Positions 3,406 to 60,694 of a stretch of DNA of 60,801 nucleotides are shown piece after piece. Under the pieces are notes generated by a model that was not told where the DNA came from, did not search any database, and saw only the letters and a program-made list of their open reading frames with translations. This DNA is from an uncultured Bacteroidota bacterium (lineage in GTDB: Bacteria > Bacteroidota > Bacteroidia > AKYH767-A > JABDAW01): positions 1-60,801 of the forward strand of contig CAIMUP010000051.1 in assembly GCA_903844645.1 (NCBI GenBank), given 5' to 3'. The number at the start of each line of letters is the position of its first letter. Positions within the stretch are counted from its first letter, which is position 1. The position numbers were made by a program, and so were the translations under genes.

Positions 3406-3487
3406 TTTTGGAGAATTTTATTGGAATTATCTGACCGGGCATCCCGAAAAGCATGTCCCTTGGATCCATGTCAGTGTTCGTTTCTTT

Positions 3488-3533
3488 CATCGTTTTATGA
3501 TAGCGACCTCTTGGGAGCTACAATAAAACGATG
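3488..3533 (-). repeat. 46-nt covarying hairpin element, copy 1 (reverse orientation)
   Basis: Perfect outer stem CATCGTTTTAT / ATAAAACGATG. The inner stem reads TAGC / GCTA where other copies have TTAC/GTAA or TTGC/GCAA. Family continuation GATGAAAGAAA follows on the minus strand. It is 58 bases upstream of the thiolase start, pointing away from it. Confidence 0.75.
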
Positions 3534-3564
3534 GATAAAAATATCCTCCCTCCGATTATTTTCC

Positions 3565-4770: not shown

Positions 4771-4787
4771 ATAAGAATATCCATCAT

Positions 4788-4833
4788 CATCCTTTTATTG
4801 TTACTCCCAAGGGGTCGTAATCATAAAAGGATG
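4788..4833 (+). repeat. 46-nt covarying hairpin element, copy 2
   Basis: Perfect 11-bp outer stem CATCCTTTTAT / ATAAAAGGATG, inner stem TTAC / GTAA and CCC/GGG around a short loop. It starts 17 bases after the thiolase stop and is followed by GAAAGAAA. There is no T-tract, so it is not a standard intrinsic terminator. Confidence 0.8.
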
Positions 4834-4979
4834 AAAGAAATAAAATCTGAAAGACACATTTCTGTTTCTGTAAAAGGGATTAGAAGGAATCAAAACATAA
4901 TTTGAAGAAGATAAGAGATTCTATTACTTCACTTATGCTCTTTTGCTTTAGTAAAGTCGAACTTCATCTGCAAAGTAAC

Positions 4980-35230: not shown

Positions 35231-35237
35231 CATCCAT

Positions 35238-35265
35238 CCTGAAAGGTTTTTCTCCTTTCAGGTTT
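35238..35265 (+). terminator. Hairpin terminator with TTTTTCT loop
   Basis: Stem CCTGAAAGG / CCTTTCAGG around TTTTTCT, seven bases after the stop at 35230. Same loop as at 418 and 60670. Confidence 0.7.
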
Positions 35266-35277
35266 AATAAAAACCAA

Positions 35278-41079: not shown

Positions 41080-41730
41080 TTATTTTATTTTCTCTAAGCA
41101 AATTATTCTTATTGAATCATCATACTCATGATTTGGATATAGAATAATTCTTGTTGAGTCAATATCATAATGAACCTTTATTGAATCATAATGGGCTGCT
41201 CTATAATCATCCTGAAGATAATGTTTTTCAAATATTCCTTTTTTCTCAAAAATATCCAATCGTGGAGAACCTAAAACTCCCACAAAAGAAGATTGGATTC
41301 TTAATTTATTGTCTTGAAAATAAATTTTATCCGCAGGTGATATGAGTTGTCCAAATAAAGAAAAGACAAGCACAACTCCTAAGAATGGAATATATAAAAA
41401 GCCAGCCGTAAATACAGGCAGGAATGAGAATATCCTAAAGTAAATTTTCTCTATTTTATTCATGACCATCTTATCGGAAAGAAGAATAAAAAACATACCT
41501 GTGATGAGTGTTATTATAATAAATATTCTGGTAGTCCATAATCCGCGAAGCCCAATATGATATTTGATATATAAAAAAATAACAGATGCAGAAATCAAAA
41601 ATGTACCATAATGAATATATTTAATAGTCTTTGAAATAGTTGGGCTAAGTCTCCATAGAACCTTTCTGTTCCATAGAAAGAGTCCATAGAAATAAAAGAA
41701 TAAGAATGCTATCGTAAATATTATTGCCAT
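41080..41730 (-). CDS. Membrane protein of unknown function
   Basis: 216 residues with five predicted membrane helices (about 1-17, 35-55, 65-86, 97-118, 118-134) and a hydrophilic C-terminal 80 residues (FEKKGIFEKHYLQDDYRAAHY, YPNHEYDD). No family recognised. The tail could sit in the periplasm or cytoplasm. It has its own -7 box and no obvious operon partner. The tail pattern with repeated short strands resembles small proteins seen in tandem in other Bacteroidota, but I cannot name a function. Confidence 0.7.
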   Translation of the reverse strand: MAIIFTIAFLFFYFYGLFLWNRKVLWRLSPTISKTIKYIHYGTFLISASVIFLYIKYHIGLRGLWTTRIFIIITLITGMFFILLSDKMVMNKIEKIYFRIFSFLPVFTAGFLYIPFLGVVLVFSLFGQLISPADKIYFQDNKLRIQSSFVGVLGSPRLDIFEKKGIFEKHYLQDDYRAAHYDSIKVHYDIDSTRIILYPNHEYDDSIRIICLEKIK

Positions 41731-41744
41731 TATTTATTGAGCGG

Positions 41745-41752
41745 CAAATCTA
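41745..41752 (-). promoter_or_regulatory. Promoter -7 box (TAGATTTG)
   Basis: Minus-strand exact match 14 bases before the ATG at 41730, with a TTTG about 20 bases upstream as a possible -33 box. Confidence 0.65.
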
Positions 41753-41844
41753 CTAAACATTTCCATTCCCAAACAACCATCCACCAAAAGTAGCTATCAA
41801 ATATATCCCCGGCAATCGAGTTCGTCAACATTATACTTATAATA

Positions 41845-42381
41845 ATGAATGCCGTGTTTGGAGATGTAGAATGGGAGATGATGGTAGCGAAATGGGATGC
41901 GGTATTCATCGAATGTACCATTGTGTGGGCTTCTTCGGTGATGATGAAGACGAGTTTCGATGCCGTATTGGCAATCTCTTTCACGGTATTCACTAATTCA
42001 ATGACTGTTTTGGCTTGTTTTGATACGATGTTAGCCAGTATGTGTGTTCCGAAGCCTTTCGGTGGTGTTCCGAAGCCTTTCGGTAATGTTCCGAAGCCTT
42101 TCAGTGATGTTCCGAAGCCTTTCGGTGATGTTCCGAAGCCTTTCGGTGATGTTCCGAAACCTTTCGGTGATGTTCCGAAGCCTTTCGGTGATGCTCCGAA
42201 ACCTTTCGGTGGTGTTCCGAAGCATTTCGGTGGTGTTCCGAAGCCTTTCGGTGATGTTCCGAAGCCTTTCGGTAATGTTCCGAAGCCTCGCAGTGATGTT
42301 GAATTGGGTAAATGTGATAATGACTTGGGTTGATGTGATGTTGAAATGAGTTAATGGAATAAAATATTGGTTGAAATGTAA
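41845..42381. repeat. 21-bp tandem array 9 with decayed flanks (about 25 units)
   Basis: Twelve homogeneous units at 42046-42297 contain TTCCGAAGCCTTTCGGTGAT; CCGAA/TTCGG forms a dyad. To the left, 41845-42045 can be cut into nine or ten 21-mers with only partial similarity (recurring GATGC, GTATTC, TGTTTTGGC in the same column). To the right, four more degenerate 21-mers run from 42298 to 42381 (TTGGGT and ATGTGAT in register). The phase is kept although letters have diverged. The right end stops ten bases before the gene at 42391. It lies in a 660-bp divergent gap; 41753-41844 holds nothing else. Confidence 0.85.
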
Positions 42382-42390
42382 CCATTACTC

Positions 42391-43131
42391 ATGATAAAGA
42401 GTAAACGCCGACTTATGATGATTAAAAAGAAAGAGTACATGATAAAAGAATTGGATGAAAAGAGCATCAGGATGATTATTTTGTCTGCCATGGTGATACA
42501 AACGATCCAAGGCAAACTCGGAATGCCCCGAAAGATTGTTTTATTTAAGGAACGCTCGATTGCGATGGCATCCATCCAAAGCGAAAACAAGAGCGGATAT
42601 TATACCGTTCCTTTTGATGGTCTCGAATTGTGGGAAACGCGCAACGGAGATCTGGCGACAACGCTGCAAAATCAGGAAAAGAAGAAAGCAAGTGCCGCCG
42701 ATGTGGCGTATTCAAAGGGGCAAGTGGTCTTGTCGCTGAATGAATTTATCATTTATATCAACGCTCTGGCACGGGAAAATCAAAAGGAAGCGGTATCTAT
42801 TATCGAAACAGCCTTGTGCGTAGTGATTCCATTTTATAAAAGAGTAATCATTGATTTTAAGTATGTAAAAGGTCCGGGCAGCGGCGTTATTACGCTCATT
42901 TCTGCGGCAGTAAAAGAGGATGGAAAACGAGTTAGCGGGACTTATCAATTTCAATATGGATACATGGTAGAAGGGGTGATAGAATGGGCAGAGGCAATTA
43001 GCCTTCCGAAAAATATTATTGTCGTGAAAGGCTTGAAAACAGGGGTTATCATCTACTTTCGCAAACGATCTGCAACCAGCAAAAGCGGCATGAGCAAATG
43101 GTGCGAACCGATCTTTACATCGCTTAATTAA
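42391..43131 (+). CDS. Unknown protein with helical core and C-terminal Fn3-like segment
   Basis: 246 residues; the start is uncertain among several early Met codons (residues 1, 9, 10 and 17), with no -7 box nearby because the decayed array runs to its edge. No signal peptide. The centre is helical (EFIIYINALARENQKEAVSIIETA), and the last 70 residues (YQFQYGYMVEGVIEW, VKGLKTGVIIYFRKRSATSKSG, WCEPI) resemble a fibronectin-III-like domain in which a GLKTGVIIYFR strand matches the usual LxPGTxYYFR. Compare the end of the 15230 protein. A hairpin element lies 9 bases after the stop. Function unknown. Confidence 0.68.
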   Translation: MIKSKRRLMMIKKKEYMIKELDEKSIRMIILSAMVIQTIQGKLGMPRKIVLFKERSIAMASIQSENKSGYYTVPFDGLELWETRNGDLATTLQNQEKKKASAADVAYSKGQVVLSLNEFIIYINALARENQKEAVSIIETALCVVIPFYKRVIIDFKYVKGPGSGVITLISAAVKEDGKRVSGTYQFQYGYMVEGVIEWAEAISLPKNIIVVKGLKTGVIIYFRKRSATSKSGMSKWCEPIFTSLN

Positions 43132-52411: not shown

Positions 52412-52435
52412 AGTCCTTTTTGCGAGGTCTGTAAT

Positions 52436-52481
52436 CATCCTTTTATTGTTACTCCCAGGAGGTCGTAATCATAAAACAATG
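52436..52481 (+). repeat. 46-nt covarying hairpin element, copy 3
   Basis: Left arm CATCCTTTTAT and inner stem TTAC/GTAA identical to copy 2, right arm ATAAAACAATG with two mismatches. It lies 24 bases after the smpB stop. Confidence 0.75.
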
Positions 52482-52567
52482 ATGATAAAATTAAAATATA
52501 CGATTACCCAGTTTCCTGATAGTACTTTCTTGTTCTATAAATCGAAAAAGACATATTCTTAATGACA

Positions 52568-60593: not shown

Positions 60594-60602
60594 TGCCTTC
60601 AT

Positions 60603-60648
60603 CCTCGTTTTATTGTTGCTCCCAAAAGGTCGCAATCATAAAACGATG
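60603..60648 (+). repeat. 46-nt covarying hairpin element, copy 4
   Basis: Arms TCGTTTTAT / ATAAAACGA and inner stem TTGC / GCAA, followed by GATGAAAGAAA. It begins nine bases after the SDR stop. Confidence 0.8.
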
Positions 60649-60669
60649 AAAGAAATTACTACGATGTAT

Positions 60670-60694
60670 CCTGAAAGGTTTTTCTCCTTTCAGA
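60670..60694 (+). terminator. Hairpin terminator with TTTTTCT loop
   Basis: Stem CCTGAAAGG / CCTTTCAG(A) around TTTTTCT, after the covarying hairpin. The T-tract is weak (ATTTC). From 60695 to the window end nothing more is recognised. Confidence 0.55.

Follow-up and report, generated by a model that had tools for sequence, protein, structure and literature searches.

Array 9 is built on a single 21-bp lattice that runs without a break through three families of units: those of a diverged left block, a homogenised core and a diverged right block. Twenty-one base pairs correspond to two turns of B-DNA. The array is best read as one of a class of non-coding arrays that evolve by turnover of whole units under a constraint to two-turn spacing, and this reading is probably correct. 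Its evolutionary part, according to which the core is homogenised in whole 21-bp units and the edges drift without indels, can be held with high confidence. The further part, in which a putative DNA-binding protein would use the helical phasing of the array as its platform, is proposed tentatively.

Layout and Register of Array 9

The window, i.e. the whole stretch of 60,801 nucleotides that was analysed, is contig C51 of a genome of 3.84 Mb in 143 contigs, estimated as 98.7% complete. The genomes analysed are draft assemblies (at least one is a MAG), with several contigs that terminate in an array. Array 9 is located in a divergent intergenic region, with a 216-aa gene on one side and a 246-aa gene on the other. 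The features are as follows, with strand given for the two genes.

41080..41730, minus strand: flanking gene of 216 aa, an orphan for which Pfam, NCBIfam and 40 relatives gave no match
41815..41877: left margin of the conserved cassette, common to the copy on contig C65 and that on contig C158 of the sister species; 21-bp periodicity not clear
41878..42045: left block with eight 21-bp units, diverged but in register (register test, column 5, no indels)
42046..42297: homogenised core, 12 units with consensus GTTCCGAAGCCTTTCGGTGAT (TRF, unit listing, column counts)
42298..42360: right block, three diverged 21-bp units of the GTTGAATTGGGTAAATGTGAT family in the same register
42361..42381: possible fourth right unit, not significant (3 of 21 positions identical to the core at register 0)
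42391..43131, plus strand: flanking gene of 246 aa, without family match

Neither flanking gene displayed a match to a defence family or an NCBI family. The first half of the 216-aa protein is hydrophobic, and its gene lies directly upstream of accA.

The core was recovered by TRF as 12.2 copies of a 21-mer at 42045-42300 with 91% matches and 0% indels; its last unit (42277-42297) carries the variant CTCGCAG, which is common to all three copies in the genome. The right block was reported by the same program at 42293-42356 with a period of 21 and 74% matches, and its units are identical to the core at 10, 9 and 10 of 21 positions at register 0. The earlier note had expected a lag-21 autocorrelation outside the core, and a significant one is observed on both sides: it amounts to 0.394 in the left part (41845-42045) against a null of 0.272 ± 0.035, and to 0.587 in the right part (42298-42381) against 0.327 ± 0.068, neither value being reached in any of 500 simulations. 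A value of 0.394 is attained by only 0.5% of 201-bp segments taken from coding ORFs of the window. Further out the peak is absent, with values of 0.214 at 41740-41844 and 0.313 at 42382-42600. In a leave-one-out register test, the left units agreed at 8.33 of 21 positions at register 0 and at 5.5 elsewhere (best other register, 6.0). Register 0 was the best for eight of the nine left units, and the same behaviour was seen in all five homologous copies described below. The unit at 41857-41877, taken by itself, is not in register, so the clearly periodic left block comprises the eight units of 41878-42045. Moreover, T occupies unit column 5 in all 40 left-block units of the five copies. Of the roughly nine left and four right diverged units counted in the earlier note, the existence of flanking units is therefore real, with eight clear on the left and three on the right, and the fourth right unit is doubtful.

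Cassette Copies and Age Structure

DNA searches of the genome itself recovered the core on contigs C65 and C94 and, more weakly, at C91, and the left block, apart from the window, at C65 and C94 only. The three copies share one layout, namely a left block, a core of 12, 8 or 7 units and a right block. In the sister species G002 the cassette is present at C158 and C38 with a core of 13-14 units, and in G001, of the same genus and 97% complete, a copy is absent. The cassette thus described occurs at several sites and has been kept at an orthologous site in the sister species; C158 is taken as that site because a homologue of the 246-aa ORF comes next there. A truncated copy of this ORF adjoins the C94 copy, and paralogues are located at C8 and C140. 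In the left margin, identities of successive blocks are 16, 15 and 15 of 21 to C158 and 13, 15 and 16 of 21 to C65. Similarity to C158 extends to about 41796 and falls to background beyond it; homology with other copies starts at about 41796-41836, and that with C38 at 41878. With head-to-tail units longer than about 9 bp and a variable number of copies, array 9 has the properties of a bacterial intergenic minisatellite (VNTR).

Whole 21-bp units are the steps in which the core gains or loses copies and is homogenised within a species. Core units are near-uniform within each species and differ between the two species at about six of 21 positions, and left-block identity is 69% between the two G002 copies and 58-65% between these and the copies of the present genome. 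Since left units are shared one to one and core units are species-specific, the core has been homogenised after the species split and the left block has not. The earlier picture of a young core between old edges is accordingly retained on the left; the right edge is not simply old, because at C65 it is an expanded, second homogenised sub-array of 9.6 units. The companion suggestion that the left units are decayed copies of the core unit is not supported, their match to it at register 0 (5.9 of 21, background about 5.5) being no better than chance; they look like members of another, older unit family on the same 21-bp lattice. Compared with the right unit, they score 9.2 of 21 at register 0, higher than at any of the 20 other registers though register 13 comes close; this weak resemblance is no more than suggestive. 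In the simplest picture, the left block would be an older lattice of another unit family, with an in-phase expansion of the GTTCCGAA family inside it. Repeats of GTTCCGAA spaced by 21 bp also appear in a few arrays of unrelated sequence, at C91, at C3 of G002 and at C154 of G001.

Substitutions and Indels in the Left Block

The left block can be aligned unit by unit, gap-free, across all five copies. On the tree of these copies, which spans two species, about 119 parsimony substitutions were counted (140 if the non-homologous part of C38, omitted here, is included) and no indels. As a control, all alignments of dispersed non-coding repeats of the same genomes were used, in which 357 mismatches accompany 29 gap openings, or about one gap per 12 substitutions. 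At this ratio approximately ten indels would be expected in the left block where none was observed, a difference whose significance is approximate because the control alignments overlap; at one indel per 50 substitutions, the result would be unremarkable (P ~0.09). The proposal that substitutions are many, that indels are absent and that spacing is in this way kept better than sequence therefore holds across species. Elsewhere in the genus arrays do contain indels (29 of 115 arrays), with roughly 13 mismatches for each indel position when settings are lax. No significant 10.5-bp periodicity was found when interspecies change was analysed by unit column.

A Genus-Wide Class of Period-21 Arrays

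Statistics for the class were obtained from a 381-kb sample, about 10% of the genome, in which some contigs had been chosen for weak left-block matches. The period was 21 or a multiple of it in 90 of the 95 tandem arrays of this sample. After neighbours had been merged 79 arrays remained, which extrapolates to about 800 in this genome, and these account for about 4% of the sampled DNA at about two per 10 kb, almost all of them intergenic. The mean spacing is 4.8 kb with a CV of 0.49, compared with 0.68-0.78 when equal numbers of arrays were assigned at random to intergenic gaps, with four definitions applied (p<0.001); spacing and placement both rest on simple ORF calls. Nearly every array has its own unit sequence, and no k-mer stands out as a common motif among the units of different arrays. 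The same period-21 habit is found in G001 and G002 and is rare outside the genus in the samples taken. In the flanks of 68 arrays from the three genomes, a lag-21 excess extends to about 200 bp out, which implies that phase-keeping edges are general and that array 9 is an example of them. Literature searches, with most subscription papers outside their coverage, returned no account of a system of this kind.

Conservation in place between species is not clear for most arrays, and this speaks against each of them having an essential role. Among the orthologous gene borders that could be compared, some keep an array with an unrelated unit, for example downstream of uvrC in G001, and at others the array has been lost or gained. 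Single arrays, which turn over between species in this manner, are therefore dispensable.

Several further observations were made in the course of this survey. Arrays of the class are seen in the window (1-60801) and at loci L005-L007 and L136-L151 of the same genome. A break of synteny coincides with the array L120:17682-18267 (contig C1 of G002) relative to loci L221 and L222 (C35 and C107) of the present genome, where both broken ends carry arrays, with unrelated units, at similar distances of about 200 and 150 bp from the genes. Upstream of accA in G001 (L008:4447-4856), adjacent arrays with the different palindromic units CAGGAAATGATTTCCTG and GTCAAATGGATTTTGAC share one 21-bp register; the outer array is degenerate and the other homogeneous, a layout like that of array 9 in unrelated sequence. 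Positional orthology there is unproven, because the intervening ORF is not homologous. Two dispersed elements were also recorded. One is non-coding, measures about 100-150 bp, includes inverted parts (CCTGAAAGGTTTTTCTCCTTTC) and has many copies, among them 60599-60693 of the window, L121:18470-18618 and others at L146, L150 and L151; short pieces of it lie at 3481-3539, 4781-4841, 35236-35272 and 52434-52482 of the window. The second, of about 123 bp (L121:7425-7547), has at least 12 copies in the genome with approximately 80-92% identity and mostly constant length.

Alternative Explanations

The earlier note had considered a coding origin of the left part. The frame 41845-42333 could be a gene, live or in remnant form, for a peptide of heptad repeats (VPKPFGD), given that the plus frame is open for 162 aa, that the heptads show a hydrophobic pattern and that pN between species is about half of pS (0.32 vs 0.59). 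Similar pN/pS values are obtained in minus-strand frames, however, and parsimony changes are distributed over the codon positions as 36/35/48 (p=0.27), with no significant third-position excess. In-frame stops occur in two of the five copies, C94 and C158, as well as in most right-block units of C65, and neither a protein family nor a homologue outside the array copies was found. Array 9 consequently displays neither the intact frame nor the codon-position bias of a protein-coding gene, and such a gene is extremely improbable here; the open frame is regarded as a by-product of a stop-free 21-bp unit. For the left block, a coding origin was examined in six frames and rejected. A structured RNA or cruciform, in which each unit would form a small hairpin in a transcript or in supercoiled DNA, draws on an excess of inverted repeats in the units (mean arm 4.41 vs 3.41 in shuffles, sd 0.13; 4.25 vs 3.55 with dinucleotide shuffles), on the sequence CCGAA-GCCT-TTCGG within the core unit and on the folding of four core units on the minus strand, which is better than that of shuffles (z -3.2). 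No such advantage over shuffles is seen for the plus strand of the core or for either strand of the left block; the dyad is lost in the homologous G002 core unit, and dyad arms vary as much as the remaining positions or more (0.153 vs 0.132). A strong dyad is present in only 22 of 68 arrays and the window has no Rfam match, so that array 9 exhibits neither a match to a known RNA family nor a conserved structure. Hairpin conservation and compensatory change gave a mixed result: compensated pairs make up 40 of 75 double changes, an excess that may stem from unit subfamilies. Taken as a whole, the hairpin explanation is quite improbable. Even less probable is a mobile element of the MITE type, made up of a leader, a minisatellite and a tail and comparable to BrickBuilt (described below), which the three dispersed copies here and the two in G002, each with left block, tandem core and mostly a right block, would resemble. 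No inverted repeat of at least 12 nt, as expected of terminal inverted repeats, is present in 41740-42480 of the window, the C94 copy reaches into ORF 42391 at its 5' part, a pattern seen in ordinary segmental duplications, and the left block exists at only three places in the genome, other arrays being devoid of it.

A purely mutational origin is unlikely. Here, the replication or repair machinery of the genus would duplicate DNA in 21-nt steps without selection, and phase would be kept since small indels are rarer than substitutions. The unrelated units without a common motif are consistent with this, as are the many arrays unshared at orthologous sites and the near-restriction of the class to one genus, which would be expected from a changed enzyme. 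Against it, nearly all arrays are intergenic; as 21 bp preserves the reading frame, neutral duplication should also have left many arrays inside genes. Even spacing is likewise unexpected, as are zero indels beside about 119 substitutions. Selected two-turn spacing, with a putative reader, explains the intergenic placement, the even distribution and the lack of edge indels better than mutational bias alone.

Comparison with Known Repeat Systems

Plasmid iterons are direct repeats of about two helical turns, suited to phased protein binding; they are few, lie at replication origins and are bound by a sequence-specific Rep protein. The present arrays are iteron-like in that their repeats fall on whole helical turns (90 of 95 arrays), and differ in that no motif common to their units was detected. 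BrickBuilt, a minisatellite-containing MITE of Porphyromonas gingivalis, is likewise an intergenic element of Bacteroidota with dispersed copies of variable copy number, and consists of tandem 23-nt repeats with a leader and a tail (PMC4596501). It is, however, one family of 19 copies with one unit and small inverted-repeat ends (PMC4596501), whereas about 800 arrays with different units and period 21 occur here, and array 9 is without terminal inverted repeats. The tandem repeat regions of Borgs are also pervasive, fast-evolving, independent of one another in sequence and in many cases intergenic (PMC9879509). Their units vary in length (examples are 18, 20, 21 and 36 nt), their share of the genome is 0.3-1.0%, and ORFs contain about 44% of them (PMC9879509); the arrays studied here cover about 4% of the sampled DNA, are nearly all of period 21 and nearly all intergenic, and are evenly spaced. 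The TAACTGA heptamer, which is also found in some Bacteroidota, similarly forms many intergenic sets of direct repeats (PMC4679880), but it is one fixed heptamer that in Beggiatoaceae stands mostly near start codons (PMC4679880), as opposed to 21-bp units of arbitrary sequence.

Proposed Mechanism and Significance

In the preferred reading, whole-unit turnover under a two-turn spacing constraint, the core would be renewed by unequal exchange or slippage in 21-bp steps, and this turnover would seldom get to the edges. Indels arising at the edges would be removed because the array would serve as a helically phased platform, presumably for a DNA-binding and probably oligomerising protein of the nucleoid type that would read spacing and not a fixed sequence. 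The even placement at 4.8 kb fits a role in chromosome organisation or in insulation between transcription units. A broader proposal, possible and still rather doubtful, is that in the roughly 800 evenly spaced intergenic arrays the 21-bp period alone is the signal, read by a putative protein that senses helical phase. If this is true, the ageing and renewal of such a lattice can be followed in array 9. It is by sequence that most bacterial repeats are recognised, and the arrays of this genus share only their period, two helical turns that persist despite drift. This would point either to the geometry of DNA as a selected chromosomal signal or to machinery that duplicates DNA in a fixed step of 21 nt, and either would be unusual.
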